Assembly: GCA_026874595.1 (NCBI GenBank)
Contig: CM049309.1
Location: 93,952,723 to 94,016,722, forward strand
Origin: Sipunculus nudus
Lineage: Eukaryota; Annelida; Sipuncula; Golfingiida; Sipunculidae
DNA length: 64,000 nt
Direction of reading: 5' to 3'
Below are positions 17,887 to 63,018 of the stretch, piece by piece. The notes under the pieces are model-generated. The model saw nothing but the letters and a program-made list of their open reading frames with translations, had not been told where the DNA came from and did no database searches. The translations under genes and the position numbers were made by a program. Each line of letters begins with the position of its first letter. The first letter of the stretch is position 1.

Positions 17887-18690
17887 TTAAGTTAAAACAA
17901 AAGAAGACAAACGTATTACAAAAATAAATCTGTTAGGAATCTTGCTAAACTTTGTGTACTTTGACACATTCACGTGATCGTTAAGCTGTCAGCCATTTTG
18001 CAGCATCGCTTTATATAGAAAACATGCACAAACAGGTGAATGCACAATAATTCTCTATTTCTTTAGGTAAAACAAATAAATTGTTTTATGATTAATCAAA
18101 ATCCTTGAGGATTCATATATTTAACCATTGACAACATTTGACATATTAACGTGATCGGTAAGATGTCAGCCATTGGCAGTAAGATCATTATTTATCAGTA
18201 ATAAATGCAAACAGGTAAATATACAGTAATTTTTCTGTAGAAGGTGTAGAAATTATAAATAAATAAAATATATTAACTAATGAATTAAAACATTATTAAA
18301 TGAAAAATTCCAAAACAGATAAATCAAAAACCCTCTGAATAATATGAGAAACACACCCAAGCCATCCTATAGCAATCCATAGTATTAGAGTGACGGCTAC
18401 AATCTTGAAGATTAACACCCAGTTTATTTGAATAGCCTACTTAAATGAATTTTATCGGTTGACAAATAAGATATTTAATTAAACGGGACCTAATGTATAC
18501 CCTGTGGGAACCAACCCATTCTTCGTTCACTAATTGGCTGATCAGTTATAGATTTGATTGACATCGGGGATTGTGACCTGCAGTATCCGTCTTAATATCT
18601 TGAGTACTGTTTATCATGATGAACTGGGCCCTGTTTATTGAGGCTTAATTGATGCAAGCCCAGGTAGCCAGATGACATAATTACTAGTGG
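17887..18690. other. Non-element spacer with a diverged 177-bp duplication
   Basis: ACGTGATCG followed by a TGTCAGCCATT word occurs at 17972 and again at 18149, and AAACAGGTRAAT recurs near 18030 and 18207, so a segment of about 177 bp is present twice with heavy divergence. The remainder has no feature I can support. The last bases (18686-18690) begin the microhomology from which the 72-bp satellite appears to have started. Confidence 0.5.
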
Positions 18691-18744
18691 ACAGGTATTG
18701 GAACTTGTACTATTTGGTTTGCACCAGTTAAGCCTGGTGGTGTA

Positions 18745-21700
18745 ATGGTTAGTCTGTTTGACTCAGGTACTGGGACTTGTTCTATTGGGTTTGCCCCAGT
18801 TCAGCCTGGTGGTGTAATGGTTAGTCTGCTGGACTCAGGTACTGGGACTTGTTCTATTGGGTTTGCACCAGTTAAGCCTGGTGGTGTAATGGTTAGTCTG
18901 TTTGACTCAGGTACTGGGACTTGTTCTATTGGGTTTGCCCCAGTTAAGCCTGGTGGAGTAATGGTTAGTCTGTTTGACTCAGGTACTGGGACTTGTTCTA
19001 TTGGGTTTGCACCAGTTAAGCCTGGTGGTGTAATGGTTAGTCTGCTGGACTCAGGTACTGTAACTTGTTCTATTGGGTTTGCACCAGTTAAGCCTGGTGG
19101 TGTAATGGTTAGTCTGTTTGACTCAGGTACTGGGACTTGTTCTATTGGGTTTGCACCAGTTAAGCCTGGTGGTGTAATGGTGAGTCTGTTTGACTCAGGT
19201 ACTGGGACTTGTTCTATTGGGTTTACACCAGTTAAGCCTGGTGGTGTAATGGTTAATCTGCTGGACTCAGGTACTGGGACTTGTTCTATTGGGTTTGCCC
19301 CAGTTCAGCCTGGTGGTGTAATGGTTAGTCTGCTGGACTTGGGTACTGGGACTTGTTCTATTGAGTTTGCACCAGTTAAGCCTGGTGGTGTAATGGTTAG
19401 TCTGCTGGACTCAGGTACTGGGACTTGTTCTATTGGGTTTGCACCAGTTAAGCGTGGTGGTGTAATGGTTAGTCTGCTGGACTCAGGTACTGGGACTTGT
19501 TCTATTGGGTTTGCACCAGTTAAGCCTGGTGGTGTAATGGTTAGTCTGTTTGACTCAGGTACTGGGACTTGTTCTATTGGGTTTGCCCCAGTTAAGCCTG
19601 GTGGAGTAATGGTTAGTCTGCTGGACTCAGATACTGGGACTTGTTCTATTGGGTTTGCCCCAGTTCAGCCTGGTGGTGTAATGGTTAGTCTGCTGGACTC
19701 AGGTACTGGGACTTGTTCTATTGGGTTTGCACCAGTTAAGCCTGGTGGAGTAATGGTTAGTCTGTTTGACTCAGGTACTGGGACTTGTTCTATTGGGTTT
19801 GCACCAGTTAAGCCTGGTGGTGTAATGGTTAGTCTGCTGGACTCAGGTACTGGGACTTGTTCTATTTGGTTTGCACCAGTTAAGCCTGGTGGTTTAATGG
19901 TTAGTCTGCTGGACTCAGGTACTGGGACTTGTTCTATTGGGTTTGCACCAGTTAAGCCTGGTGGTGTAATGGTTAGTCTGCTGGACTCAGGTACTGGGAC
20001 TTGTTCTATTGGGTTTGCACCAGTTAAGCCTGGTGGTTTAATGGTTAGTCTGCTGGACTCAGGTACTGGGACTTGTTCTATTGGGTTTGCACCAGTTAAG
20101 CCTGGTGGTGTAATGGTTAGTCTGCTGGACTCAGGTACTGGGACTTGTTCTATTGGGTTTGCACCAGTTAAGCCTGGTGGTGTAATGGTTAGTCTGCTAG
20201 ACTCAGGTACTGTAACTTGTTCTATTGGGTTTGCACCAGTTAAGCCTGGTGGTGTAATGGTTAGTCTGCTAGACTCAGGTACTGTAACTTGTTCTATTGG
20301 GTTTGCACCAGTTAAGCCTGGTGGTGTAATGGTTAGTCTGCTGGACTCAGGTACTGTAACTTGTTCTATTGGGTTTGCACCAGTTAAGCCTGGTGGTGTA
20401 ATGGTGAGTCTGTTTGACTCAGGTACTGGGGCTTGTTCTATTGGGTTTGCACCAGTTAAGCCTGGTGGTGTAATGGTTAGTCTGCTGGACTCAGGTACTG
20501 GGACTTGTTCTATTGGGTTTGCACCAGTTAAGCCTGGTGGTGTAATGGTTAGTCTGCTGGACTCAGGTACTGGGACTTGTTCTATTGGGTTTGCCCCAGT
20601 TCAGCCTGGTGGTGTAATGGTTAGTCTGCTGGACTTGGGTACTGGGACTTGTTCTTCTGGGTTTGCACCAGTTAAGCCTGGTGGTGTAATGGTTAGTCTG
20701 CTTGACTCAGGTACTGGGACTTGTTCTATTGGGTTTGCACCAGTTAAGCCTGGTGGTGTAATGGTTAGTCTGCTGGACTCAGGTACTGGGACTTGTTCTA
20801 TTGGGTTTGCACCAGTTAAGCGTGGTGGTGTAATGGTTTGTCTGTTTGACTCAGGTACTGGGACTTGTTCTATTGGGTTTGCCCCAGTTAAGCCTTGTGG
20901 AGTAATGGTTAGTCTGCTGGACTCAGATACTGGGACTTGTTCTATTGGGTTTGCCCCAGTTAAGCCTGGTGGTTTAATGGTTAGTCTGCTGGACTCAGGT
21001 ACTGGGACTTGTTCTATTGGGTTTGCACCAGTTAAGCCTGGTGGTGTAATGGTTAGTCTGCTGGACTCAGGTACTGGGACTTGTTCTATTGGGTTTGCAC
21101 CAGTTAAGCCTGGTGGTGTAATGGTTAGTCTGCTGGACTCAGGTACTGGGACTTGTTCTATTGGGTTTGCACCAGTTAAGCCTGGTGGTGTAATGGTTAG
21201 TCTTCTGGACTCAGGTACTGTAACTTGTTCTATTGGGTTTGCACCAGTTAAGCCTGGTGGTGTAATGGTTAGTCTGTTTGACTCAGGTACTGGGACTTGT
21301 TCTATTGGGTTTGCACCAGTTAAGCCTGGTGGTGTAATGGTGAGTCTGTTTGACTCAGGTACTGTAACTTGTTCTATTGGGTTTGCATCAGTTAAGCCTG
21401 GTGGTGTAATGGTTAGTCTGTTTGACTCAGGTACTAGGACTTGTTCTATTGGGTTTGCACCAGTTAAGCCTGGTGGTGTAATGGTGAGTCTGTTTGACTC
21501 AGGTACTGGGACTTGTTCTATTGGGTTTGCACCAGTTAAGCCTGTTGGTGTAATGGTTAGTCTGCTGGACTCAGGTACTGGGACTTGTTCTATTGGGTTT
21601 GCCCCAGTTCAGCCTGGTGGTGTAATGGTTAGTCTGCTGGACTTGGGTACTGGGACTTGTTCTATTGGGTGTGCACCAGTTAAGCCTGGTGGTGTAATGG

Positions 21701-24700
21701 TTAGTCTGCTGGACTCAGGTACTGGGACTTGTTCTTTTGGGTTTGCACCAGTTAAGCCTGGTGGTGTAATGGTTAGTCTGCTGGACTCAGGTACTGGGAC
21801 TTGTTCTATTGGGTTTGCCCCAGTTAAGCCTGGTGGAGTAATGGTTAGTCTGCTGGACTCAGATACTGGGACTTGTTCTATTTGGTTTGCACCAGTTAAG
21901 CCTGGTGGTTTAATGGTTAGTCTGCTGGACTCAGGTACTGGGACTTGTTCTATTGGGTTTGCACCAGTTAAGCCTGGTGGTGTAATGGTTAGTCTGCTGG
22001 ACTCAGGTACTGGGACTTGTTCTATTGGGTTTGCACCAGTTAAGCCTGGTGGTGTAATGGTTAGTCTGTTTGACTCAGGTACTGGGACTTGTTCTATTGG
22101 GTTTGCCCCAGTTCAGCCTGGTGGAGTAATGGTTAGTCTGCTGGACTCAGGTACTGGGACTTGTTCTATTGGGTTTGCACCAGTTAAGCCTGGTGGTGTA
22201 ATGGTTAGTCTGTTTGACTCAGGTACTGGGACTTGTTATTTTGGGTTTGCCCCAGTTAAGCCTGGTGGAGTAATGGTTAGTCTGTTTGACTCAGGTACTG
22301 GGACTTGTTCTATTGGGTTTGCACCAGTTAAGCCTGGTGGTGTAATGGTTAGTCTGCTGGACTCAGGTACTGTAACTTGTTCTATTGGGTTTGCACCAGT
22401 TAAGCCTGGTGGTGTAATGGTTAGTCTGTTTGACTCAGGTACTGGGACTTGTTCTGTTGGGTTTGCACCAGTTAAGCCTGGTGGTGTAATGGTGAGTCTG
22501 TTTGATTCAGGTACTGGGACTTGTTCTATTGGGTTTGCACCAGTTAAGCCTGGTGGTGTAATGGTTAGTCTGCTGGACTTGGGTACTGGGACTTGTTCTA
22601 TTGGGTTTGCCCCAGTTCAGCCTGGTGGTGTAATGGTTAGTCTGCTGGACTTGGGTACTGGGACTTGTTCTATTGGGTTTGCACCAGTTAAGCCTGGTGG
22701 TGTAATGGTTAGTCTGCTGGACTCAGGTACTGGGACTTGTCCTATTGGGTTTGCACCAGTTAAGCCTGGTGGTGTAATGGTTAGTCTGTTTGATTCAGGT
22801 ACTGGGACTTGTTCTATTGGGTTTGCACCAGTTAAGCGTGGTGGTGTAATGGTTAGTCTGCTGGACTCAGGTACTGGGACTTGTTCTATTGGGTTTGCAC
22901 CAGTTAAGCCTGGTGGTGTAATGGTTAGTCTGTTTGACTCAGGTACTGGGACTTGTTCTATTGGGTTTGCCCCAGTTAAGCCTGGTGGAGTAATGGTTAG
23001 TCTGCTGGACTCAGATACTGGGACTTGTTCTATTTGGTTTGCACCAGTTAAGCCTGGTGGTTTAATGGTTAGTCTGCTGGACTCAGGTACTGGGACTTGT
23101 TCTATTGGGTTTGCACCAGTTAAGCCTGGTGGTGTAATGGTTAGTCTGCTGGACTCAGGTACTGGGTCTTATTCTATTGGGTTTGCACCAGTTAAGCCTG
23201 GTGATGTAATGGTTAGTCTGTTTGACTCAGGTACTGGGACTTGTTCTATAGGGTTTGCCCCAGTTCAGCCTGGTGGTGTAATGGTTAGTCTGCTGGACTC
23301 AGGTACTGGGACTTGTTCTATTTGGTTTGCACCAGTTAAGCCTGGTGGAGTAATGGTTAGTCTGTTTGACTCTGGTACTGGGACTTGTTCTATTGGGTTT
23401 GCACCAGTTAAGCCTGGTGGTGTAATGGTTAGTCTGCTGGACTCAGGTACTGTAACTTGTTCTATTGGGTTTGCACCAGTTAAGCCTGGTGGTGTAATGG
23501 TTAGTCTGTTTGACTCAGGTACTGGGACTTGTTCTATTGGGTTTGCACCAGTTAAGCCTGGTGGTGTAATGGTGAGTCTGTTTGACTCAGGTACTGTAAC
23601 TTGTTCTATTGGGTTTGCACCAGTTAAGCCTGGTGGTGTAATGGTTAGTCTGTTTGACTCAGGTACTAGGACTTGTTCTATTGGGTTTGCACCAGTTAAG
23701 CCTGGTGGTGTAATGGTGAGTCTGTTTGACTCAGGTACTGGGACTTGTTCTATTGGGTTTGCACCAGTTAAGCCTGTTGGTGTAATGGTTAGTCTGCTGG
23801 ACTCAGGTACTGGGACTTGTTCTATTGGGTTTGCACCAGTTCAGCCTGGTGGTGTAATGGTTAGTCTGCTGGACTTGGGTACTGGGACTTGTTCTATTGG
23901 GTTTGCACCAGTTAAACCTGGTGGTGTAATGGTTAGTCTGCTGGACTCAGGTACTGGGACTTGTTCTATTGGGTTTGCACCAGTTAAGCCTGGTGGTGTA
24001 ATGGTTAGTCTGCTGGACTCAGGTACTGGGACTTGTTCTATTTGGTTTGCACCAGTTAAGCATGGTGGTTTAATGGTTAGTCTGCTGGACACAGGTACTG
24101 GGACTTGTTCTATTGGGTTTGCACCAGTTAAGCCTGGTGGTGTAATGGTTAGTCTGCTGGACTCAGGTACTGGGACTTGTTCTATTGGGTTTGCACCAGT
24201 TAAGCCTGGTGGTGTAATGGTTAGTCTGTTTGACTCAGGTACTGGGACTTGTTCTATTGGGTTTGCCCCAGTTGAGCCTGGTGGTGTAATGGTTAGTCTG
24301 CTGGACTCAGGTACTGGGACTTGTTCTATTGGGTTTGCACCAGTTAAGCCTGGTGGTGTAATGGTTAGTCTGTTTGACTCAGGTACTGGGACTTGTTCTA
24401 TTGGGTTTGCCCCAGTTAAGCCTGGTGGAGTAATGGTTAGTCTGTTTGACTCAGGTACTGGGACTTGTTCTATTGGGTTTGCACCAGTTAAGCCTGGTGG
24501 TGTAATGGTTAGTCTGCTGGACTCAGGTACTGTAACTTGTTCTATTGGGTTTGCACCAGTTAAGCCTGGTGGTGTAATGGTTAGTCTGTTTGACTCAGGT
24601 ACTGGGACTTGTTCTATTGGGTTTGCACCAGTTAAGCCTGGTGGTGTAATGGTGAGTCTGTTTGATTCAGGTACTGGGACTTGTTCTATTGGGTTTGCAC

Positions 24701-27700
24701 CAGTTAAGCCTGGTGGTGTAATGGTTAGTCTGCTGGACTTGGGTACTGGGACTTGTTCTATTGGGTTTGCCCCAGTTCAGCCTGGTGGTGTAATGGTTAG
24801 TCTGCTGGACTTGGGTACTGGGACTTGTTCTATTGGGTTTGCACCAGTTAAGCCTGGTGGTGTAATGGTTAGTCTGCTGGACTCAGGTACTTGGACTTGT
24901 TCTATTGGGTTTGCACCAGTTAAGCCTGGTGGTGTAATGGTTAGTCTGTTTGACTCAGGTACTGGGACTTGTTCTATTGGGTTTGCACCAGTTAAGCGTG
25001 GTGGTGTAATGGTTAGTCTGCTGGACTCAGGTACTGGGACTTGTTCTATTGGGTTTGCACCAGTTAAGCCTGGTGGTGTAATGGTTAGTCTGTTTGACTC
25101 AGGTACTGGGACTTGTTCTATTGGGTTTGCCCCAGTTAAGCCTGGTGGAGTAATGGTTAGTCTGCTGGACTCAGATACTGGGACTTGTTCTATTTGGTTT
25201 GCACCAGTTAAGCCTGGTGGTGTAATGGTTAGTCTGCTTGACTCAGGTACTGGGACTTGTTCTATTGGGTTTGCACCAGTTAAGCCTGGTGGTGTAATGG
25301 TGAGTCTGTTTGACTCAGGTACTGGGACTTGTTCTGTTGGGTTTGCACCAGTTAAGCCTGGTGGTGTAATGGTTAGTCTGCTGGACTCAGGTACTGTAAC
25401 TTGTTCTATTGGGTTTGCCCCAGTTAAGCCTGGTGGAGTAATGGTTAGTCTGCTGGACTCAGGTACTGGGACTTGTTCTATTGGGTTTGCCCCAGTTAAG
25501 CCTGGTGGTGTAATGGTTAGTCTGCTAGACTCAGGTACTGTAACTTGTTCTATTGGGTTTGCCCCAGTTAAGCCTGGTGGAGTAATGGTTAGTCTGCTGG
25601 ACTCAGGTACTGGGACTTGTTCTATTGCGTTTGCCCCAGTTAAGCCTGGTGGAGTAATGGTTAGTCTGCTGGACTCAGATACTGGGACTTGTTCTATTTG
25701 GTTTGCACAAGTTAAGCCTGGTGGTTTAATGGTTAGTCAGCTGGACTCAGGTACTGGGACTTGTTCTATTGGGTTTGCACCAGTTAAGCCTGGTGGTGTA
25801 ATGGTTAGTCTGCTGGACTCAGGTACTGGGACTTGTTCTATTTGGTTTGCACCAGTTAAGCCTGGTGGAGTAATGGTTAGTCTGTTTGACTCTGGTACTG
25901 GGACTTGTTTTATTGGGTTTGCACCAGTTAAGCCTGGTGGTGTAATGGTTAGTCTGCTGGACTCAGGTACTGTAACTTGTTCTATTGGGTTTGCACCAGT
26001 TAAGCCTGGTGGAGTAATGGTTAGTCTGTTTGACTCAGGTACTCGGACTTGTTCTATTGGGTTTGCACCAGTTAAGCCTGGTGGTGTAATGGTTAGTCTG
26101 CTGGACTCAGGTACTGTAACTTGTTCTATTGGGTTTGCACCAGTTAAGCCTGGTGGTGTAATGGTGAGTCTGTTTGACTCAGGTACTGGGATTTGTTCTA
26201 TTGGGTTTGCACCAGTTAAGCCTGGTGGTGTAATGGTTAGTCTGCTGGACTTAGGTACTGGGACTTGTTCTATTGGGTTTGCACCAGTTAAGCCTGGTGG
26301 TGTAATGGTTAGTCTGCTGGACTCAGGTACTGGGACTTGTTCTATTGGGTTTGCCCCAGTTCAGCCTGGTGGTGTAATGGTAAGTCTGCTGGACTTGGGT
26401 ACTGGGACTTGTTCTGCTGGGTTTGCACCAGTTAAGCCTGGTGGTGTAATGGTTAGTCTGCTTGACTCAGGTACTGGGACTTGTTCTATTGGGTTTGCAC
26501 CAGTTAAGCCTGGTGGTGTAATGGTTAGTCTGCTGGACTCAGGTACTGGGACTTGTTCTATTGGGTTTGCACCAGTTAAGCCTGGTGGTGTAATGGTTAG
26601 TCTGCTGGACTCAGGTACTGGGACTTGTTCTATTGGGTTTGCACCAGTTAAGCCTGGTGGTTTAATGGTTAGTCTGCTGGACACAGGTACTGGGACTTGT
26701 TCTATTGGGTTTGCACCAGTTAAGCCTGGTGGTGTAATGGTGAGTCTGTTTGACTCAGGTACTGTAACTTGTTCTATTGGGTTTGCACCAGTTAAGCCTG
26801 GTGGTGTAATGGTTAGTCTGTTTGACTCAGGTACTAGGACTTGTTCTATTGGGTTTGCACCAGTTAAGCCTGGTGGTGTAATGGTGAGTCTGTTTGACTC
26901 AGGTACTGGGACTTGTTCTATTGGGTTTGCACCAGTTAAGCCTGTTGGTGTAATGGTTAGTCTGCTGGACTCAGGTACTGGGACTTGTTCTATTGGGTTT
27001 GCACCAGTTCAGCCTGGTGGTGTAATGGTTAGTCTGCTGGACTTGGGTACTGGGACTTGTTCTATTGGGTTTGCACCAGTTAAACCTGGTGGTGTAATGG
27101 TTAGTCTGCTGGACTCAGGTACTGGGACTTGTTCTATTGGGTTTGCACCAGTTAAGCCTGGTGGTGTAATGGTTAGTCTGCTGGACTCAGGTACTGGGAC
27201 TTGTTCTATTTGGTTTGCACCAGTTAAGCCTGGTGGTTTAATGGTTAGTCTGCTGGACACAGGTACTGGGACTTGTTCTATTGGGTTTGCACCAGTTAAG
27301 CCTGGTGGTGTAATGGTTAGTCTGCTGGACTCAGGTACTGGGACTTGTTCTATTGGGTTTGCACCAGTTAAGCCTGGTGGTGTAATGGTTAGTCTGTTTG
27401 ACTCAGGTACTGGGACTTGTTCTATTGGGTTTGCCCCAGTTGAGCCTGGTGGTGTAATGGTTAGTCTGCTGGACTCAGGTACTGGGACTTGTTCTATTGG
27501 GTTTGCACCAGTTAAGCCTGGTGGTGTAATGGTTAGTCTGTTTGACTCAGGTACTGGGACTTGTTCTATTGGGTTTGCCCCAGTTAAGCCTGGTGGAGTA
27601 ATGGTTAGTCTGTTTGACTCAGGTACTGGGACTTGTTCTATTGGGTTTGCACCAGTTAAGCCTGGTGGTGTAATGGTTAGTCTGCTGGACTCAGGTACTG

Positions 27701-30696
27701 TAACTTGTTCTATTGGGTTTGCACCAGTTAAGCCTGGTGGTGTAATGGTTAGTCTGTTTGACTCAGGTACTGGGACTTGTTCTATTGGGTTTGCACCAGT
27801 TAAGCCTGGTGGTGTAATGGTGAGTCTGTTTGACTCAGGTACTGGGACTTGTTCTATTGGGTTTGCACCAGTTAAGCCTGGTGGTGTAATGGTGAGTCTG
27901 TTTGACTCAGGTACTGTAACTTGTTCTATTGGGTTTGCACCAGTTAAGCCTGGTGGTGTAATGGTTAGTCTGCTGGACTCAGGTACTGTAACTTGTTCTA
28001 TTGGGTTTGCACCAGTTAAGCCTGGTGGTGTAATGGTTAGTCTGTTTGACTCAGGTACTGGGACTTGTTCTATTGGGTTTGCACCAGTTAAGCCTGGTGG
28101 TGTAATGGTGAGTCTGTTTGACTCAGATACTGGGACTTGTTCTATTTGGTTTGCACCAGTTAAGCCTGGTGGTTTAATGGTTAGTCTGCTGGACTCAGGT
28201 ACTGGGACTTGTTCTATTGGGTTTGCACCAGTTAAGCCTGGTGGTGTAATGGTTAGTCTGTTTGACTCAGGTACTAGGACTTGTTCTATTGGGTTTGCAC
28301 CAGTTAAGCCTGGTGGTGTAATGGTGAGTCTGTTTGACTCAGGTACTGGGACTTGTTCTATTGGGTTTGCACCAGTTAAGCCTGTTGGTGTAATGGTTAG
28401 TCTGCTGGACTCAGGTACTGGGACTTGTTCTATTGGGTTTGCCCCAGTTAAGCCTGGTGGTGTAATGGTTAGTCTGCTGGACTTGGGTACTGGGACTTGT
28501 TCTATTGGGTGTGCACCAGTTAAGCCTGGTGGTGTAATGGTTAGTCTGCTGGACTCAGGTACTGGGACTTGTTCTATTGGGTTTGCCCCAGTTAAGCCTG
28601 GTGGAGTAATGGTTAGTCTGCTGGACTCAGATACTGGGACTTGTTCTATTGGGTTTGCACCAGTTAAGCCTGGTGGTTTAATGGTTAGTCTGCTGGACTC
28701 AGGTACTGGGACTTGTTCTATTGGGTTTGCACCAGTTAAGCCTGGTGGTGTAATGGTTAGTCTGCTGGACTCAGGTACTGGGACTTGTTCTATTGGGTTT
28801 GCACCAGTTAAGCCTGGTGGTGTAATGGTTAGTCTGTTTGACTCAGGTACTGGGACTTGTTCTATTGGGTTTGCCCCAGTTCAGCCTGGTGGAGTAATGG
28901 TTAGTCTGCTGGACTCAGGTACTGGGACTTGTTCTATTGGGTTTGCACCAGTTAAGCCTGGTGGTGTAATGGTTAGTCTGTTTGACTCAGGTACTGGGAC
29001 TTGTTATTTTGGGTTTGCCCCAGTTAAGCCTGGTGGAGTAATGGTTAGTCTGTTTGACTCAGGTACTGGGACTTGTTCTATTGGGTTTGCACCAGTTAAG
29101 CCTGGTGGTGTAATGGTTAGTCTGCTGGACTCAGGTACTGTAACTTGTTCTATTGGGTTTGCACCAGTTAAGCCTGGTGGTGTAATGGTTAGTCTGTTGG
29201 ACTCAGGTACTGGGACTTGTTCTATTGGGTTTGCACCAGTTAAGCCTGGTGGTGTAATGGTGAGTCTGTTTGATTCAGGTACTGGGACTTGTTCTATTGG
29301 GTTTGCACCAGTTAAGCCTGGTGGTGTAATGGTTAGTCTGCTGGACTTGGGTACTGGGACTTGTTCTATTGGGTTTGCCCCAGTTCAGCCTGGTGGTGTA
29401 ATGGTTAGTCTGCTGGACTTGGGTACTGGGACTTGTTCTATTGGGTTTGCACCAGTTAAGCCTGGTGGTGTAATGGTTAGTCTGCTGGACTCAGGTACTG
29501 GGACTTGTCCTATTGGGTTTGCACCAGTTAAGCCTGGTGGTGTAATGGTTAGTCTGTTTGATTCAGGTACTGGGACTTGTTCTATTGGGTTTGCACCAGT
29601 TAAGCGTGGTGGTGTAATGGTTAGTCTGCTGGACTCAGGTACTGGGACTTGTTCTATTGGGTTTGCACCAGTTAAGCCTGGTGGTGTAATGGTTAGTCTG
29701 TTTGACTCAGGTACTGGGACTTGTTCTATTGGGTTTGCCCCAGTTAAGCCTGGTGGAGTAATGGTTAGTTTGCTGGACTCAGATACTGGGACTTGTTCTA
29801 TTTGGTTTGCACCAGTTAAGCCTGGTGGTTTAATGGTTAGTCTGCTGGACTCAGGTCCTGGGACTTGTTCTATTGGGTTTGCACCAGTTAAGCCTGGTGG
29901 TGTAATGGTTAGTCTGCTGGACTCAGGTACTGGGTCTTATTCTATTGGGTTTGCACCAGTTAAGCCTGGTGGTGTAATGGTTAGTCTGTTTGACTCAGGT
30001 ACTGGGACTTGTTCTATAGGGTTTGCCCCAGTTCAGCCTGGTGGTGTAATGGTTAGTCTGCTGGACTCAGGTACTGGGACTTGTTCTATTGGGTTTGCAC
30101 CAGTTAAGCCTGGTGGAGTAATGGTTAGTCTGTTTGACTCTGGTACTGGGACTTGTTCTATTGGGTTTGCACCAGTTAAGCCTGGTGGTGTAATGGTTAG
30201 TCTGCTGGACTCAGGTACTGTAACTTGTTCTATTGGGTTTGCACCAGTGAAGCCTGGTGGTGTAATGGTTAGTCTGTTTGACTCAGGTACTGGGACTTGT
30301 TCTATTGGGTTTGCACCAGTTAAGCCTGGTGGTGTAATGGTGAGTCTGTTTGACTCAGGTACTGGGACTTGTTCTATTGGGTTTGCACCAGTTAAGCCTG
30401 GTGGTGTAATGGTTAGTCTGTTTGACTCAGGTACTAGGACTTGTTCTATTGGGTTTGCACCAGTTAAGCCTGGTGGTGTAATGGTGAGTCTGTTTGACTC
30501 AGGTACTGGGACTTGTTCTATTGGGTTTGCACCAGTTAAGCCTGTTGGTGTAATGGTTAGTCTGCTGGACTCAGGTACTGGGACTTGTTCTATTGGGTTT
30601 GCACCAGTTAAGCCTGGTGGTGTAATGGTTAGTCTGTTTGACTCAGGTACTGGGACTTGTTCTATTGGGTTGCCCCAGTTCAGCCTGGTGGTGTAA
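18745..30696 (+). other. 3983-codon open frame across the satellite, probably not a gene
   Basis: The frame encodes about 166 copies of a 24-residue repeat of type MVSLLDSGTGTCSIGFAPVK-PGGV. It stays open because the period is divisible by three and this frame of the unit has no stop. There is no leader, signal peptide or conserved terminal domain. It ends through a one-base deletion in a unit at the array edge. Tallying distinct variants by eye, roughly thirty change the amino acid (for example G to V, D, R or W, S to L, P to R or H) and about nine are silent, close to expectation without selection. The lack of stops is mildly surprising but compatible with recent homogenisation. A secreted or structural repeat protein cannot be excluded without transcript data. 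Confidence 0.3.
21541..30620 (+). repeat. Higher-order repeat blocks in the 72-bp array
   Basis: Rare unit variants recur at fixed offsets. TGTTATTTTGGG is at 22234 and 29002, TGTCCTATTGGG at about 22737 and 29505, and GGGTCTTATTC at 23164 and 29932, all 6768 bp apart (94 units). TGTGCACCAG at about 21669 and 28509 is offset by 6840 bp (95 units), because one unit is missing from the second block. The GACACAGG variant (24088, 27256) and the GTTGAGCC variant (24271, 27439) are 3168 bp apart (44 units). CCTGTTGGTG occurs at 21541, 23773, 26941, 28381 and 30541 (31, 44, 20 and 30 units apart). Confidence 0.88.
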
Positions 30697-30898
30697 TGGT
30701 TAGTCTGTTTGACTCAGGTACTGGGACTTGTTCTATTGGGTTTGCACCAGTTAAGCCTGGTGGTGTAATGGTTAGTCTGTGGACTCAGGTACTGGGACTT
30801 GTTCTATTGGGTTTGCCCCAGTTGAGCCTGGTGGTGTAATGGTTAGTCTGTTTGACTCGGGTACTGGGACTTGTTCTATTGGGTTTGCACCAGTTAAG

Positions 30899-31178
30899 CA
30901 TGGTGGTGTAATGGTTAGTCTGCTGGACTCAGGACCGCAAGGTTTTGGGTTTGTATCCTGATTTGTTTGCTTTCTGCGCTAAAACCTTTCTCACAAGAGT
31001 CCATCGCTTCCCCTAGGAGTGAATGGGTATTGGTCAAACATGGGTGGTAGGCAAATGTAGAACAAATAACCTTCTAGCACTGTGTGAAGCTGTTTGGTAA
31101 CATAAATCCCCAGGGTAGCTGATTGGTTATATAAATCCCCAGGGTAGCTGCTTGGTTACATAAATCCCCTGGGACCCT
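30899..31178 (+). mobile_element. tRNA-derived SINE at the edge of the satellite
   Basis: TGGTGTAATGG at 30904-30914 resembles a Pol III A box, and GGTTTGTATCC at 30948-30958 resembles a B box (two mismatches to the GGTTCRANNCC form), 33 bases apart. A tRNA-unrelated body follows, with the word GTGAATGGGTATTGG near 31019, of a type I recall from invertebrate SINEs. The 3' part is a 29-bp tandem repeat (TTGGTTACATAAATCCCC-type) at about 31094-31178, nearly three copies. The 5' head is shared with every satellite unit. Confidence 0.7.
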
Positions 31179-31345
31179 TGAAAAGCTACAAAAATGAACA
31201 GACCAGAAAGTTCATCATGTCAGTTTTTGGCCATTTTTTCACACAGAATTTCAGTCAATTATGCTGTCTTCAGAGGGATATTTCTTACATAGCTATCCAG
31301 GTGTGCACATATATTTTGATACATATTATCTTAAACACCACTTTT
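31179..31345. other. Short spacer between SINE and B element
   Basis: No recognised feature. Confidence 0.4.
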
Positions 31346-32418
31346 TTAAGCGAACCTGTGAGCTTATGTGATGGTGCAGCGTTGTTCTTCCATCGTCAGC
31401 CGTCCGCCGTCCAGGGCTTGCTTTCCTCCGTCCATGGCTGTAAGTCAGAAACCATTGGAGCTAGCAGCTCCAAATTACATGTAGAAATTGGAATTTGGGA
31501 TAAAATCACTCCTATTTCAGCAGTGGTTTGACTTATCCACCTGAAATTTTGCAGGTTTATACATCATAGACAGCTTTCTTGATTTTATGACAGGTGGCGC
31601 CACCTTCATTCACGTTTATGCTGCAGACATCCAAGCTCATATCTCAGGAACCGTTTGACAGATGAGGCTAAAATTTTGCATGTGTATAGATCTCACATAG
31701 CTCTTTATCATACGCAACACTGGCGGCGCCACCTGGAACAATTTTTGCACAGTGTCCATCTGTTTGTCTGCCGTGCGATAAAATCACTCATATCTCGGCA
31801 GTGGTTTGACATATCTGGCTAAAATTTTGCATGTTTATACTTCTTGGATAGCTTTCTCGACTATGTGGCAGGTGGCGCCACCTACTTTTATGTTTACGCT
31901 GCAGACATTCAGGCTTATATCTCAGGACTGGTTTGACATATCCCCCTGAAATTTTGCATATGTATAGAAATTATATAGCTCTTATACACACAACCTGCCA
32001 CCATTTTTGCACAGCGTCCTTCTGTTATACAAGTAGTGTTTTGACTTATCTGCCAAAAATTTTGCATATGTATATAACCTGGACAGCTTTCTGGATTTTG
32101 TGGTAGGTGGCGCAACCTACATACACATTTCAGCTGCAGACATCCATGCTAATATGCAACACACCTCACTCTATTTCCCCTTGCCACTCATTCCATGCCT
32201 CACTTCACCCACCCCACTCTGATTTAAGTGGATACATGTAGTCACTTGTTGACTACCCATATTCTAGTTTTAAAATGTCGCAGTCTGAAATTTGCAGGTC
32301 CTAAACATCCATTTTGCTGAAATCATAATACTAAGGTACATCTGCAGGACATAAAAAATAATCCTCGATTCATACTCCCAAACTTTGCACAGGTTCGCAT
32401 TAGGCCTGTAGGCCTTGT
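31346..32418 (+). mobile_element. Family B element carrying family C sequence
   Basis: The 5' end is AAGCGAACCTGTGAGCTTATG and the 3' end is CACAGGTTCGCATTAGGCCT, GTAGGCCTTG. Its middle (about 31490-32268) is family C sequence that ends in the C 3' terminus. The same B-C-B order, with the same right-hand C/B junction (TTCTAGTTT then AAAATGTC), recurs at 56083-59098, so the composite probably moved as a unit or C re-used one target site. Confidence 0.65.
31490..32268 (+). mobile_element. Family C element, 5'-truncated
   Basis: It contains C modules with CATATCTCAGGAACCG-type and TTTTGCATGTGTATAG words and the palindrome GGTGGCGCCACC (31593-31604 and further). It ends with TAGTCACTTGTTGACTACCC, ATATTCTAGTT: a stem-loop about ten bases before CTAG, the canonical Helitron-like 3' layout. 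Confidence 0.6.
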
Positions 32419-38957: not shown

Positions 38958-39670
38958 TTAGCTCAACTCACTGAAAATCAACTGAGGTGTAGGAATGGCA
39001 CAGGAATAGATCTGTCGTCAAAAGTCAAGGTCACAGGGTCCATCTGTCCAAAAATTTGTTTCCAGATGATGACTTCAGTTTGGATTGACATATAAATTGC
39101 AAATTTGACTTGTATATTGCCCACTAAAGTATAAAGCAAGAACCCTTTTGATTTTGGCGTCATGAGTTCAAGGGTCAAGGTCAGAGGACCCACTTCTTTA
39201 AAAAGATTGTGGACACATTTATAGCCAAACTTTTCATCCCAAACCTTACATCTTCCACACCTGCCAAAAGGAGAAGAAGTTTATAGTCATAGGACCCACA
39301 TCTTTATAAAGAAATCAAACTTTTCATCCCAAACCTTACATCTTCCACACCTGCCAAAAGGAGAAGAAGTTTATAGTCATAGGACCCACATCTTTATAAA
39401 GAAATCAAACTTTTCATCCCAAACCTTACATTTTCCACACCTGCCAAAAGGAGAAGAAGTTTATAGTCATAGGACCCACATCTTTATAAAGAAATCAAAC
39501 TTTTCATCCCAAACCTTACATCTTCCACACCTGCCAAAAGGAGAAGAAGTTTATAGTCATAGGACCCACATCTTTATAAAGAAATCAAACTTTTCATCCC
39601 AAACCTTACATCTTCCACACCTGCCAAAAGGAGAAGAAGTTTATAGTCATAGGACCCACATCCCAAACCT
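38958..39670 (+). mobile_element. Family A' fragment containing a 90-bp tandem array
   Basis: It starts TTTTAGCTCAACTCACTGAA, with GAGGTGTAGGAATGGCACAG matching the 2350 copy and AAGTCAAGGTCACAGGGTCC as in the A' interior. A 3' terminus was not found. Its distal part is the 90-bp tandem array described separately. Confidence 0.55.
39228..39670. repeat. 90-bp tandem repeat, five near-identical copies
   Basis: TTTTCATCCCAAACCTTACA recurs at 39231, 39321, 39411, 39501 and 39591, with a partial sixth copy at 39661. The copies are almost identical (one visible substitution near 39431), so amplification is recent. The unit is the A' module that normally occurs as diverged repeats. Confidence 0.95.
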
Positions 39671-41613: not shown

Positions 41614-44600
41614 ATTTTTAGCAAACCTGTGAGCTTATGCGATGGTGCGGCTTCGTGCGTTGTGTGTCGTGCGTCGTACGTTGTGCGTCGTGCGTTGTCT
41701 GTACGTTAACCATAGCTATCTCAAAAACGGCAAGAGCTAGCATCACCAAATTTTTTGCAAATAATCAGTCATCCAAAAAACTATATCGGATTTTGTTTAT
41801 TTTTTTTCTAACTGCATTTTCTTAGATTTTTTAGGGAAAAAGCTAAAAAAGCTTTAAAAATCTTCTTCTCTGAAACTGTCCAGCCAAATTGTCCAATATT
41901 TTACAGAAATGATCCCTGGAACAATCTTTCTCAAGTTTGTTCGAATGGTTCCAGGATGGGAGATTTTTGGCCGAGTTACAGGAGGCTGAACTTTGTTAAC
42001 TGTGCAAAAAAGCATATTAAAATTTTAATCTCAGAAAGGGCTGGAGCTATCATCACCAAATTTATGCCAATGTTGGTCACATAGGTGATATCTGAAATTG
42101 AGGTATTGGTGGCGCCACCTGCATCGGCCTTTTTTGTACGGGTTCTACAGTGCCTGTATCACACTGAGGGCTACAAAAAACTACTTCTCTGAAACCATAT
42201 GGCCAAAATGTTTAATATTGCACAGAAATGATCCTAGGGTAGTGCTTTCTGAAGTTTGTTCAAATGGTCTCTTTTCAGTGACATTTGGCTAAGTTATGGG
42301 AAGCTGAATTTAATCATACGCCATAACAGCCCATTTTAGCTCAGTGGCTACAAAGATCTTCTTCTCGAAAACCAATGGGCCAAATTCTTAAATCTCGCAC
42401 ATTAATTATCCTCAGATGTTGATAATTCAAGTTTGTTCAAATGGTTTTGGTTCAGTGCTTTTTGGTGAGTTAAAGGAAGGTGAACTTAGCCAGTGTGCTG
42501 TATCTTCCTATATGAGTTATAAACCTGCGAAACGTTTTTCGACTGATGCCACTGAAGCCAGTTTGTTAAATATTTTACAATAATAATCCCTACAATAATT
42601 CTTATAATAGTTGTCATTAACGGTTCCACATGAATGATTTTTTGGTGAATTATGGAGATTGAATGAGTCATTTTACCATATATGTTAGCTGTGTTATGCT
42701 GTTACATCTAGCCTGGCACCAGTTTATCAGCATCTATTACATCATGCCACTAGACATTTAGATTTCAGGTAATCTTTAGTTAATATTGACAAGAAATTTT
42801 TTTTAAAAGCTTTTAAAAAATTTTAGATTTATGATTTAAGTTATTCATCATACCAGGCAATGTTACAATCATGGATATTCAGCTCTCTGTGGCTATATAA
42901 AGACAACTGAACGTGGATTATAAATTATTGGTATATCTACTCAACTTAATTCAAGAATTTGCCATCAGTAAGATATCTGTATTTTAATTTTGCATTCAGT
43001 ATGCATCCGTAAAAATTTTACATATATTCCTGATTTCTTTTTTTATAAGAAGTCAACTGAAAAGCATTTTGTATTGGAAAAATAAATTTCAAAGTTATTT
43101 CAAGTAGGGACCACTTTTGTGTACAGATGGCAGCACCTGGTTTACCATTGGCAGATTGCCAGTGCCTTGATGTTGGCCATTAGCCAAGATGATGTCAGCT
43201 GTATAAATAATTTTGGCACAGTGCCAGGATTGGAAGAAGTGCAGCCAGGTATAGGTCAAGAGTTCACTCAGTGCAGTAGCTGCATTCTATTTATAGCTTT
43301 GGCTCACTGCATCATATTTGGTACCAAAGTTCAGCCTGAATCTATTTATAGCTTTGGCAGACTGCCAACTTTGTCAGCTTATGCAACAGGTCAAGAGTTC
43401 ACTCAGTGCAGCCAGGTACAGGTCAAAAGTTCACTCAGTCAAGCCAGGTGCAGGTCAAGAGTTCACTCAGTGCAGTAGCTTGAGGCAGCAATTTGTCACA
43501 GGTCACTCGGGGGCAACTGCCTTACTCACCTAAGCCTTGTCAGCCCAGTGCATCAAACTCTTGGGAAGTTTGATGTATTGGACTGATATTTTGACCTGTC
43601 TATGTGTCTTTGATGGTATTCTCATAAGACATGTTGGTATTCTTATAAGACAGGTGGTGCCACCTACATTGATGTTTGCAGTGTATGCGCCTGTTTTTTC
43701 TACAGAGGAATTCGATACATCAGCCTAAAATTTGGCATGTTTATACACATCGGGTAGCTTTATATTGTACAAGGCTGGTGGCGCCACCTACAATAATTTT
43801 TGCACAGTGTATGTCCCTGCTTATTTCACAGGAGGGTTTTGACATATCAGTCTGACATTGGGCATATTTATATATCTCTTCGTTGTATATAAGACTGGTG
43901 GTGCCAGCTACAATCATAGTTTCCGCCAAAACAGAGTTTTGCGGATACTATGATTTCAGTCAGACGCCGACGCTGCCGCCATTGCTGCATTGGTTTCCGG
44001 AGAACTTCTTTATAACCACTGGGCAGAATTTTTTAAAATTTGGAATTATGATCAGTCACATGTGAACTTGTGCGCCCTCATTTTTCATTGACCTCTGACC
44101 TTTCCTCTCTGCCCAGCGTCCATTTGTGCGTCTGTTTCCACACATAAACCCACATATCTCGGGAACCGTTTAACCAATAAGGCTAAAGATTTTGCACAAA
44201 TGTAACCCTTGGAAAGCTTTATAACATACACTAAAATGGTGAAATTTTGCAGGTTTATACATTCTGGACAGCTTTCTCGATTTTATGTCAGGTGGCACCA
44301 CTTACATTCACATTAACTCTACAGACATCCAAGCTCATATCTCGGGAACTGTTTGACCGAAAATTTTGCATGTTTATATATCTCACATAGCTCTTTATCA
44401 TACGCAAAAGCGGTGGCGCCACCTGCAATCATTTTTGCACAGTGTCCGTCTGTTTGTTTGCTGTGGGATATAATCATTCATAACAGGCAGTGGTTTGACT
44501 ATGTGCCTAAAATTTTGCAGGTTTATACATCTTGGATAGCTTTCTGGATTTTGTAGCAGGTGGCCCCACCTACATTTAAGTATACGCTGCAGACATTCAG

Positions 44601-45191
44601 GCTTATACCTCAGGACTGGTTTGACATATCCCCCTGAAATTTTGCATATGTGTAGATCTCACATAACTCTTAATCATACACAAAATTGGTGGTGCCACCT
44701 GCCACCATTTTCACACAGTGTCCATCTGTTTGTCTACTGTGGACTAAAATCACTCATATCTCAGTTGTGGTTTGACTTATCTGCCTATTTTGCATATTTA
44801 TACATCTTGGACAGCTTTCTGGATTTTGTGGTAGGTGGCGCAACCTACATACACATTTCGGCTGCAGACATCCAGGCTATTATGCAACACACCTCTCTCT
44901 GTTTCCCCTTGCCACTCAATCCATGCCTCACTTCACCTTTCCCACTCTGATTTTGGAGGATACACATAGTCTCTTGTTGACTACCCATATTCTAGTTTTT
45001 GTGTTGTGTGCACCCATGCCAGAATTGCAGCAGTGATATTTGTTTAATTGTTTCTTGTTATAAGTGTTTAGTACTTGCATTGTTCATATACATGTTACAC
45101 ATGTTCTTGAAAAGTAATGGTCCAGCATTGAAGCATTATACCTGGTGTAATCTCATTGCACAGGTTCGCATTAGGCCTGTAGGCCTTGTTT
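41614..45191 (+). mobile_element. Family B element, third layer of the nest
   Basis: The 5' end is TTAGCAAACCTGTGAGCTTA; the 3' end is CACAGGTTCGCATTAGGCCT, GTAGGCCTTGTTT at 45159-45191. A GTGCGTCGT-rich microsatellite lies at about 41645-41700. It includes the intact B stretch 42985-43030 that serves as the empty site for the A insertion at 34658. It is interrupted by a C element at about 43917-44996. Confidence 0.72.
43917..44996 (+). mobile_element. Family C Helitron-like element, innermost layer
   Basis: The 5' end carries a strong hairpin: CCGCCAAAAC, AGA, GTTTTGCGG, flanked by ATAGT and ACTATG. The 3' end is a TAGTC-GACTA stem-loop followed by CCCATATTCTAG. The interior has C modules with GGTGGCGCCACC (near 44413). 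It lies in B at the site that is uninterrupted at 4313-4323 and 46905-46925. The CTAG end followed by T agrees with a canonical Helitron-type 3' terminus. Confidence 0.68.
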
Positions 45192-49520: not shown

Positions 49521-49684
49521 CATTAGAAAGACAAAAATAAAACCATTATTATCATATAGATACATACATGAAATATAAATGTATGATATAACCTGGTGAA
49601 AACATGGTAATTTACTCAGTTTAGGGCTGCAGGAACATGCTGAGCAGCATAATTAGCAGGGGGGACTGTGATACCTACTTTTAG

Positions 49685-50970
49685 ATATTGACAGAGCCTG
49701 TGGTTCTTTTACATATTGACAGAGCCTGTGGTTCTTTTACACACTGACAGAGCCTGTGGTTCTTTTACACACTGACAGAGCCTGTGGTTCTTTTACACAC
49801 TGACAGAGCCTGTGGTTCTTTTACACACTGACAGAGCCTGTGGTTCTTTTACACACTGACAGAGCCTGTGGTTCTTTTACACATTGACAGAGCCTGTGGT
49901 TCTTTTACACACTGACAGAGCCTGTGGTTCTTTTACACATTGAAAGAGCTTGTGGTTCTTGTACACACTGACAGGGCCTGTGGTTCTTTTACACATTGAA
50001 AGAGCCTGTGGTTCTTTTACACACTGACAAAGCCTGTGGTTCTTTTACACACTGACAGAGCCTGTGGTTCTTTTACACACTGACAGAGCCTGTGGTTCTT
50101 TTACACACTAGCAGAGCCTGTGGTTCTTTTACACATTGAAAGAGCCTGTGGTTCTTTTACACACTGACAAAGCCTGTGGTTCTTTTACACACTGACAGAG
50201 CCTGTGGTTCTTTTACACACTGACAGAGCCTGTGGTTCTTTTACACACTGACAGAGCCTGTGGTTCTTTTACACACTGACAGAGCCTGTGGTTCTTTTAC
50301 ACACTGGCAGAGCCTGTGGTTCTTTTACACACTGACAGAGCCTGTGGTTCTTTTACACACTGACAGAGCCTGTGGTTTTTTTACACACTGACAGAGCCTG
50401 TGGTTCTTTTTCACACTGACAGAGCCTGTGGTTCTTTTACACATTGACAGAGCCTGTGGTTCTTTTACACACTGACAGAGCCTGTGGTTCTTTTACACAT
50501 TGAAAGAGCCTGTGGTTCTTTTACACACTGACAGAGCCTGTGGTTCTTTTACACATTGAAAGAGCCTGTGGTTCTTTTACACACTGACAGAGCCTGTGGT
50601 TCTTTTACACACTGACAGAGCCTGTGGTTCTTTTACACATTGACAGAGCCTGTGGGTCTTTTACACATTGACAGAGCCTGTGGTTCTTTTACACACTGAC
50701 AGAGCCTGTGGTTCTTTTACACATTGACAGAGCCTGTGGTTCTTTTACACACTGACAGAGCCTGTGGTTCTTTTACACATTGAAAGAGCCTGTGGTTCTT
50801 TTACACACTGACAAAGCCTGTGGTTCTTTTACACACTTGCAGAGCCTGTGGTTCTTTTAAACAATGACAGAGCCTGTGGTTCTTTTACACACTGACAGAG
50901 CCTGTGGTTCTTTTACACACTGACAGATCCTGTGGTTCTTTTACACACTGACAGAGCCTCTGGTTTCTCA
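49685..50970. repeat. 28-bp VNTR, 46 copies
   Basis: TGACAGAGCCTGTGGTTCTT recurs every 28 bp from 49689 to 50949. That distance is exactly 45 periods, so there is no net indel. Substitution variants (TGAAAG, TGACAAAG, CATTG for CACTG) recur in pairs, indicating block duplication. It ends about 75 bp before the candidate first exon at 51037. Confidence 0.97.
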
Positions 50971-57035: not shown

Positions 57036-58924
57036 GTTTATCATCAGGTCACATGTGAACTGCTGCGCCCTCATTTTTGGTTGACCTCTGACCTTTCCTA
57101 GCTGCCCAGCGTCCATTTGTGCGTCTGTTTTCACACATAAACCCGCATATCTCGGGAACTGTTTGACCGATCAGGCTAAAAATTTTGCACAAATGTAGCC
57201 CTTTGAAAGCTTTATAACATACTCTAAAAATGGTGGCACTGTCTGCAACCATTTTTGCACAGCATCATCTGTTCATCTGCCTTGGGTCAATATCACTAAT
57301 ATCTCAGCAGTGGTTTGACTTATCCGCCTGAAATTTTGCAGGTTTATACATCCTGGACAGCTTTCTCGATTTTATGACAGGTGGCGCCACCTACATTCAC
57401 CTTTACTCTGCAGACATCCAAGCTCATATCTCGGGAACTGTTTGACTGGTTGGGCCAAAATTTTGCATGTGTATAGATCTCACATAGCTCTATCATAGGC
57501 AAAACTGGTGGCCCCACCTGTAAACCACTTATGCACAGTGTCCATCTGTTCATCTGCCTTGGGATAAAATCACTCATATCTCAGCAGTGGTTTGACTTAT
57601 CCACCTGAACTTTTGAAGGTTTATACATCCTGATCAGGTTTCTCGATTTTATGACGTGGCACCACCAACATTCACGTTAACTCTGCAGACATCCAAGCTC
57701 ATATCTCGGGAACCGTTTGACCAATTGGGCCATAAGTTTGCATGTGTATAGATCTCACAGAGCTCTTCGTTGTAGGCAAAACTGGTGGCGCCACCTGCAA
57801 CTATTAATGCACAGCACCCATCTGTTCATCTGCCTTGGGATGATATCACTTATATCTCAACAGTGGTTTGACTTTTTCCTAAAATTTTGCAGGTTTATAC
57901 ATCCTGGACAGCTTTCTTGATTTTATGACAGGTGGCACCATGTACATTCATGTTTACTGTGCAGACATCCAAGCTCATATCTCGGGAACTGTGGGACTGA
58001 TTGGGCCAAAATTTTTCATGTGTATAGATCTCACATAGCTCTTCATCATAGGCAAAACTGGTGGTGCCACCTGCAACCATTTTTGCACAGTGTCCATCTG
58101 TTCATCTGCCTTGGGATGATATCACTTATATCTCCCAAGTGGTTTGACTTTTTCCACATGAAATTTTGCAGGTTTATACATCCTGGACAGCTTTCTTGAT
58201 TTTATGACAGGTGGCACCATGTACATTCATGTTTACTGTGCAGACATCCAAGCTCATATCTCGGGAACTGTGGGACTGATTGGGCCAAAATTTTGCATGT
58301 GTATAGATCTCACATAGCTCTTCATCATAGGCAAAACTGGTGGCGCCACGTGCAACCATTTATGTACAGCAACCATCTATTCATCTGCCTTGGGATAATA
58401 TCACTCATATCTCAGCAGTGGTTTGACTTATCCGCCTGAAATTTTGCAGGTTTATACATCCTGGACAGCTTTCTCGATTTTATGACAGGTGGCACCACCT
58501 ACATTCAGGTTTACTCTGCAGACATCCAAGCTCATATCTCGGGAACCGTTTGACTGATTGGGCCTAAATTTTGCATGTGTTTAGATCTCACATAGCTCTT
58601 CATCATAGGCAAACTGGTGGCGCCACCTGCAACCACTTTGCACAGCGTCCATCTGTTAATCTGCCTTAGGTTAAAATCACTCATATCTCAGCAGTGGTTT
58701 GACTTATCCGCCTGAAATTTTGCAGGTTTATACATCCTGGACAATTCTCTCGATTTTATGACAGGTAGCACCACCTACATTCACGTTTATGCTGCAGACA
58801 TCCATGCTATTATAGAACACACCACTCTATTCCCCTTGCCACTTAATCCATGCCTCACTTCACCCGTCCCACTCTGATTTCTGCAGATACACATAGTCGC
58901 TTGTTGACTACCCATATTCTAGTT
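57036..58924 (+). mobile_element. Family C element, 5'-truncated, with 276-bp internal repeats
   Basis: It starts within C (CACATGTGAACTGCTGCGCC) and lacks the 5' hairpin. The word ATCTCAGCAGTGG or a close variant recurs at about 57301, 57578, 57854, 58130, 58409 and 58684, a period near 276 bp. Each full unit holds two copies or variants of GGTGGCGCCACC (for example 57380-57391 and 57784-57795). The 3' end is TAGTCGCTTGTTGACTACCC, ATATTCTAG. Small minus-strand frames of about 60 residues repeat with the unit and have no support as genes. Confidence 0.72.
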
Positions 58925-61291: not shown

Positions 61292-62294
61292 GTAATATTG
61301 AGGATGATAAGGCACCCTGTTGGCTATATTGTTTTGAAATAGACTTGAACTTATCTAGCACCCCTTAGGCTATATCTTGTGCATATGTGTTTCTATTAGG
61401 AGTATTACTTCTTATTTGGTAGTTTTTGTAATTTTAGTGAATATACCATTTAAAAGAAATGTCCTGTTTTTTCTTCACAATTGACATATTTCTTTATATC
61501 AACCTAGAATATAAATAGCATTAAAAATCAATATTAAAAGAACAAGTTTTCCCAATTAGAGCACATTCTTAAGAAAGCAAAACAGCAACTACAGTGTTTA
61601 AGGAAGAAGAATGAAATAGAGAAGCCCCCCTCCCCCCCCTGGAGAACATATATATGCCTTTGTCTTTCACATTATATCATCATATCAGGCTATGACCTGA
61701 CTCATAAAGATCAGATAAAAGGACCCAAAGGTGTCTGAAATACTTATCTGCAGAAAACTAGCCCTGGACAGTGCTTATCAGGGAGACAGATGACAATGTC
61801 AGAGACTTGGAAAAGCTGATATGAATTTTAAATGGATCAATTTTATTAGTTCAGTGGACTATATTGATATAATCAATACAATTTACAGCAAAGGGGAATA
61901 TTAGCTTTATTTCACTAAGATATGTCATCAGTGTATGGCTCTATTTCATAGAGAGGGGTTGACATTATTGTGAATTCCCACTTAGAATACCAGGGTCTTA
62001 AACAGATCACATGTGAAACTTTTTAATACTCTTCATGTAGATTATCTTTACTAACAACATTAGGCACCTCCACTTATCATTATATCCATTCAGTGATTAT
62101 CCTTAAGGTGGGCCTTAATCATTCTGTGTTTATCAGTCTCAGTGATGATGAAAACAGAAGTGGTGGTGGTAGAACATCTTTTAGACATGTTTTCATGGAT
62201 TATTCATTAATTACGTAATGTTAATGAAAGGAAAACTTGACTTTTATATCAGATTGTATAATATGGACGGATCAATAAGATGCAGTGGATAAGC
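61292..62294. other. Spacer
   Basis: AT-rich with a short poly-C tract (61625-61639). No gene or element recognised. Confidence 0.4.
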
Positions 62295-63018
62295 AGACTG
62301 AGAAAAACCATGCTCAGTGGTCCAAGACAAGTTGATGTGAGACCCAGGCTGAGAAAACCCATGTCCGGTGGTCCAAGATAAGTTTATGTGGGACTCAGGC
62401 TGAGAAAACCCATGTCCAGTGGTCCAAGATGAGTTGATGTGGGTCTCGGGCTGGGAAAAACCATGTCCAATGGTCCAAGATGATTTGATGTGGGCCTCAC
62501 ATTGAGAAAAACCATGTCCAGTGGTCCAAGATAAGTTTATGTCGGACTCGGGCCGAGAAAACCCATGTCCAGTGGTCCAAGATGAGTTGATGTGGGACTT
62601 GGGCTGGGAAAAACTATGTCCATTAGTCCAAGATGAGTTGATGTGGGCCTCACACTGAGAAAAACCATGTCCAGTGGTCCAAGATGAGTTGATGTGGGCC
62701 TCACACTGAGAAAAACCATGTCCAGTGGTCCAAGATGAGTTGATGTGGGACTCAGGCTGAGAAAACCCATGTCCAGTGGTCCAAGATGAGTTGATGTAGG
62801 CCTCGCACAGAGAAAAACCATGTCCAGTGGTCCAAGATAAGTTTATGTGGGACTCAGGCTGAGGAAACCCATGTCCAGTGGTCCAAGATGAGTTGATGTG
62901 GGACTCGGGCTGGGGAAAACCATGTCCATTGGTCCAAGATGAGTTCATGAGAGACTCGGGCTGGGCTCAGAAAAGCCATATCCAGAGGTCCAAGACAAGC
63001 TAAGGTGGGACTCATGCA
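62295..63018 (-). repeat. 51-bp minisatellite, about 14 copies
   Basis: CCATGTCCAGTGGTCCAAGA recurs every 51 bp (for example CCAGTGGTCC at 62671 and 62722). Two unit types alternate irregularly, with GGGACTCAGGCTGA or GGGCCTCACACTGA between cores. Since 51 is a multiple of three, a 234-codon minus-strand frame (62244-62948) stays open with a 17-residue repeat of type HINSSWTTGHGFSQPES. Its C-terminal tail is unrelated run-on, and no signal peptide or domain is visible, so I treat it as a repeat and not a gene. Confidence 0.93.

Follow-up and report, generated by a model that had tools for sequence, protein, structure and literature searches.

A single-locus 72-bp tandem array in Sipunculus nudus, probably derived from a SINE head and adjoining 5′ DNA

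Introduction

The closest described counterparts of the tandem array presented here are the SINE-derived satellites (sSats) of squamates, in which a portion of a SINE is repeated in tandem and the end unit, which is longer, continues into the SINE (PMC10702118). As described in that study, some sSat units carry 14–44 nt of unknown origin, snake units measure 67 nt, and arrays comprise nearly 950 and more than 1200 units, with a homogeneity of ~94% in the longest cobra locus. Most snakes have many similar loci, which does not hold for every squamate with sSats (PMC10702118). Amphibian satellites based on tRNA regions have already been tabulated: in two reviews, Hy/Pol III from Hydromantes and satellite 1 from Xenopus laevis are traced to the tRNA-related regions of SINE-like elements (PMC9659126, PMC6947457). 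The same reviews mention minisatellites from the Alu and B1 SINEs and give the model of Haber and Louis, in which a founding duplication takes place between short flanking repeats of 5–10 bp (PMC6947457, PMC9659126).

Here we analyzed a window of 64,000 nucleotides from Sipunculus nudus (assembly GCA_026874595.1, contig CM049309.1, positions 93,952,723 to 94,016,722 of the forward strand; coordinates below are those of the window). It contains a 12-kb block of ~170 near-identical 72-bp repeats that has grown at one spot in the genome. In our judgment this is probably a single-locus SINE-derived satellite with a minisatellite-sized unit, which arose from the head of a SINE and ~36 bp of DNA 5′ of it and expanded by block copying.

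Set beside the squamate sSats as described (PMC10702118), the array likewise has a tandem unit that is in part SINE, a portion of the unit that is non-SINE, and an end unit continuing into the SINE. As in sSats, the tandem unit takes in a defined portion of a SINE that is dispersed in the same genome. It differs from them in the SINE family involved, in having a single locus with its unit across the assembly, in a SINE whose 3′ terminus is cut off and in its apparent position within another repeat. The many loci of sSats have no counterpart here, assembly-wide word counts giving one locus for the 72-bp unit. A search for tandem heads of the family type elsewhere in the assembly (exact words, gap 30–60) returned none, at a low sensitivity, since a single exact word had only 71 matches. 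By description, the array also resembles the two amphibian satellites in that its unit is built on a tRNA-related SINE head. With the Alu and B1 minisatellites and the Haber and Louis model, as given in the reviews, it shares a unit in the minisatellite range and perhaps also short similar words at the ends of the proposed founding segment. Unlike those minisatellites its unit includes non-SINE DNA, and unlike the model it has an exact overlap of 4 bp, below the quoted 5–10 bp.

The locus clearly illustrates a known mode of repeat birth, with unusually legible boundaries, and represents no new kind of system. Many satellites no longer reveal their origin. Here the source SINE, its family, the neighboring repeat and both boundaries are all found at one locus, and the founding step can therefore be tested at one orthologous site in related species.

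Results and discussion

Structure of the array

Tandem Repeats Finder reported for the window a period of 72 with 170.1 copies and 94% matches at 18692–30933. Cutting the array unit by unit placed it at 18692–30929 on the + strand, with 170 head-to-tail units, 168 of 72 bp and two of 71 bp, confirming the 12-kb array of a 72-bp unit that had been proposed in an initial annotation made from the sequence alone. Units differ from the consensus at a mean of 2.4 positions, a unit with an indel being counted as one difference. The two 71-bp units are adjacent (30644–30785, starts at 30644 and 30715) and lie near the right edge; their single-base losses are the only indels of the array, the first 166 units having none. 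The annotation had placed the highest unit divergence and all indels at the two edges. The first unit is indeed diverged, with 6 mismatches to the consensus, but interior units at 22220 and 28988 equal it, and indels occur at the right edge only and are absent from the left. With regard to the subtelomeric preference of sSats, the distance between the array and the end of its 97.5-Mb contig is ~3.5 Mb.

The 72-bp unit is confined to a single locus in the assembly. A 37-mer from its non-SINE half, searched with ≤3 mismatches, had 168 matches in the 1.43-Gb assembly, all on one strand, and 168 in the window; an exact 29-mer from the same half occurred 105 times in each. Because the assembly count equals the window count, the 37-mer is restricted to this locus (~100 places are among the matches listed).

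The source SINE

Directly after the last array unit the sequence continues into the body of a SINE. Searching 30899–31178 against the 1.43-Gb assembly yielded 39 scored matches out of 1023 first-look candidates, with identities of 72–84%. Twenty-nine loci were entered into an alignment, from which a start filter removed L030, leaving 28 copies with a few near-duplicates among them. Conservation per ten columns is 0.36–0.55 across 60 upstream columns, 0.61 for the following ten and 0.79–0.94 from about GTGGAGCGTGGTGG to AAACCCCCAC near the SINE 3′ end. This alignment upholds the proposed SINE 5′ end at about GTGGAGCGTGGTGG and, together with the whole-genome matches, the SINE-head identity of half the unit and the passage of the last unit into the SINE body.

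The consensus of the family measures ~349 bp. The window copy (30897–31210, + strand), whose head coincides with the SINE portion of the last array unit, aligns to consensus positions 4–219 and 226–271 and is then cut off, so that ~78 bp of the consensus 3′ end are missing. The end of the SINE had previously been set at 31178, which falls short of the 31210 reached by this copy. Since the SINE 3′ end is lost, a target-site duplication cannot be read. Divergence from the consensus is 16% for the window copy compared with 5–13% (median 9%) among the 28 copies; these had themselves contributed to the consensus and had been selected for their likeness to the window copy.

A 29-bp motif stands three times in a row at 31088–31173 (+ strand), at a point where the consensus has one short stretch. 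A loose search gave three occurrences of the motif in the window copy, a single one in each of 9 of the 28 copies and none in the remaining 19. When 31050–31215 was compared with the genome, only one of 32 matches, the window itself, spanned the triplication. What had been taken for a 29-bp tailed 3′ end is an internal triplication private to this copy and no family tail. It is a second tandem duplication private to the same SINE copy as the array. ARAGORN detected no tRNA gene in the 64-kb window, and Rfam gave seven weak matches there, all under gathering scores and none in the array or the SINE.

The surrounding repeat

On both sides of the array and SINE we found parts of another dispersed repeat, TE1, in the same orientation. 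The left part (18492–18693, + strand) breaks off at 18693, where other TE1 copies continue, and the right part occupies 31222–31345 (+ strand; local alignment score 135). TE1 consensus positions 1–65 correspond to 18629–18693 at 89% and positions 265–340 to 31222–31297 at 84%. The search with the left flank (18492–18693) scored 40 matches of 57 candidates, one being the query itself. Between the two parts 195 bp of TE1 are absent at this locus, a stretch that is present at least partly in 23 of 29 TE1 loci. From this arrangement, array and SINE appear to lie inside one TE1 copy; less simply, they would lie between two broken TE1 copies of the same orientation. The TE1 break at 18693 fixes the left array boundary independently of the array itself, the two overlapping by the shared bases CA.

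A separate dispersed repeat at 18300–18500, up to ~89–91% identical in scored copies, ends near 18500 and adjoins TE1. A search with 18400–18735 mostly returned this other repeat among its 39 scored matches.

Origin of the 72-bp unit

About half of each 72-bp unit is the 5′ head of the dispersed SINE and the other ~36 bp are non-SINE (18694–18730, + strand, in the first-unit version). This half was compared with the 75 bp upstream of each of the 28 aligned SINE copies, none of which contained a good match to it; the highest local score was 17.6, compared with 74 for the segment itself and 58 for the first unit. The initial annotation had proposed that the unit joins the SINE head to non-SINE DNA, that it was born at this SINE copy, and that its non-SINE part lacks a counterpart in other copies. 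The checks that could be run agree with this, the unit being single-locus and the upstream flanks lacking the segment in 28 of 28 cases. The contrary finding, that the whole unit belongs to the SINE, was not obtained, as the ~36 bp precede none of the 28 copies.

The same annotation regarded the 36 bp as upstream host DNA. Their non-SINE nature stands, while their status as the original flank was overstated, with no TE1 likeness in unbiased tests. Local alignment to the TE1 consensus gave shuffle p values of 0.23–0.50 for the unit consensus and 0.52–0.74 for the first unit. The undisturbed flank of a SINE lying in TE1 would be expected to match TE1, and the result of these unbiased tests counts against such a status for the 36 bp. 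A breakpoint-anchored alignment to a hand-picked TE1 variant gave p values of 0.002–0.005 for the unit consensus and 0.43–0.59 for the first unit; the target was selected after looking and the test was left uncounted. The segment may be decayed TE1, repair filler or other DNA.

The course of events that we favor would begin with a SINE that came to lie in an old TE1 copy, pieces of which remain to the left and right. Through a break or an error in replication, 72 bp would then have been duplicated, consisting of the ~36 bp just 5′ of the SINE and the initial ~36 bp of the SINE itself; a short word common to both ends may have aided this step. From this seed, unequal exchange or a similar process copying many-unit blocks would have produced ~170 units. 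On the right side the SINE 3′ end and ~200 bp of TE1, both absent today, would have been lost.

At the founding junction TGGACTCAGG of the SINE head is joined to CAGGTA at the TE1 edge. The exact overlap, CAGG, is 4 bp long. Among random junction pairs 2.1% do as well, and among random window positions 1.7%; for the likeness TGGA--CAGG, with its 2-bp gap, the shares are 9.4% and 5.2%, respectively. Since TGGACA is present in the TE1 consensus, the left word is no worn array unit, a point in favor of a duplication between the two words. A founding duplication between microhomologous words, as originally suggested, fits the sequence, but a 4-bp overlap lends it weak support.

Another origin of the 36 bp, which we regard as unlikely, is that they were captured as filler or by template switching in break repair during the loss of ~200 bp of TE1, the chimeric unit arising in that event and being amplified immediately, for instance through rolling-circle or template-switch replication. 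TE1 breaks exactly at the left array edge with ~200 bp missing, and the likeness of the spacer to TE1 and to the SINE is at chance level in the unbiased tests, both of which speak for such a capture. However, no donor was found, the assembly having no other match at ≤3 mismatches. A decayed TE1 origin of 36 bp would moreover be hard to recognize, and the post hoc anchored alignment described above gave low p values for the unit consensus but high ones for the first unit.

It is improbable that the whole unit is tRNA/SINE-derived, with the 36 bp as a decayed SINE B-box half and the array as tandem SINE heads without flanking DNA. The spacer and the B-box region of the window SINE have TTGGGTTTG in common, in the same order, and the B-box score is reached by just 40 of 1077 random 47-bp window pieces for the unit consensus and 25 of 1077 for the first unit. 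Dinucleotide shuffles, in contrast, reach the score against the window SINE in 20–35% (unit consensus) and 11–20% (first unit) and against the SINE consensus in 25–98%, and 282-bp window pieces reach it in 89/358 and 72/358. This origin of the spacer was rejected because its score lies within the shuffles, although only 2–4% of the random 47-bp window pieces match it.

More doubtful still is a reading in which the array is a satellite with both founding edges readable and the SINE, tandemized twice independently within a broken TE1 (72 bp × 170 in its head, 29 bp × 3 in its body), would mark a duplication hotspot. Bolder again would be translation of the 4002-codon frame, with which the absence of stops and indels over 166 units is compatible.

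Growth of the array

Returning to the derivation from a SINE head and its 5′ neighbor, growth via block copying is well supported. Of the 170 units, 105 belong to five-unit blocks that recur with ≤3 differences; when unit order was shuffled 30 times, such units averaged 1.2 and never exceeded 10. The longest copied blocks comprise 25 units at a lag of 94, with 8 differences, and 16 units at a lag of 44, with 2. These recurring multi-unit blocks support the earlier proposal of growth by unequal exchange; the type of exchange may have been unequal crossing-over, break-induced replication or slipped replication.

The open frame across the array

A 4002-codon open frame on the + strand (18688–30696) spans the array and shows no sign of constraint. 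Its length follows from the divisibility of 72 by 3 and from the single frame of the unit that lacks stops on this strand, and it is a by-product of that 24-codon unit. The 168 full-length units contain 54 distinct variants, of which 16 are synonymous, 38 nonsynonymous and none a stop in this frame; the neutral expectation for the same spectrum is 14.1, 39.0 and 0.9. Among these 54 variants there is no deficit of nonsynonymous or stop changes in the frame relative to neutrality. A translated repetitive protein gene with a 24-residue repeat over 4002 codons is extremely improbable and was rejected on this neutral spectrum: the frame is open throughout, no indel interrupts the first 166 units and none of the variants is a stop, but 16:38 equals the neutral 14.1:39.0, less than one stop was expected, and the frame crosses the SINE head and ends at an indel. 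The variant spectrum, ARAGORN and Rfam detected no function for the array. Pfam, applied to three further open frames in the window, yielded two marginal matches, both in one repetitive frame.

Other observations in the window and assembly

The window is rich in minisatellites. It contains 46 copies of a 28-bp unit with 94% matches (49678–50965), a 42-bp array of 16.5 copies (432–1129), a 90-bp array of 4.9 copies with 99% matches (39226–39662) and a 51-bp array of 14 copies (62294–63014). A 276-bp unit is arranged in tandem with 5.7 copies at 57243–58808 and 2.3 copies at 44242–44878. The consensus units of these two arrays share sequence, and a similar sequence stands singly near 31520–31590; a dispersed repeat seems to have been tandemized at the two places.

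A COX1-family search of the assembly gave 11 matches: nine were long open frames located on small contigs, one was on C123 and one was a short fragment on C5. Contigs with such long open frames are C60, C61, C62, C66, C72, C74, C75, C89 and C123. The frame on C123, which alone was translated, reads as what we take to be a bacterial-type oxidase, and the COX1-family frames on small contigs suggest that the assembly includes bacterial contigs, from a symbiont or contamination.
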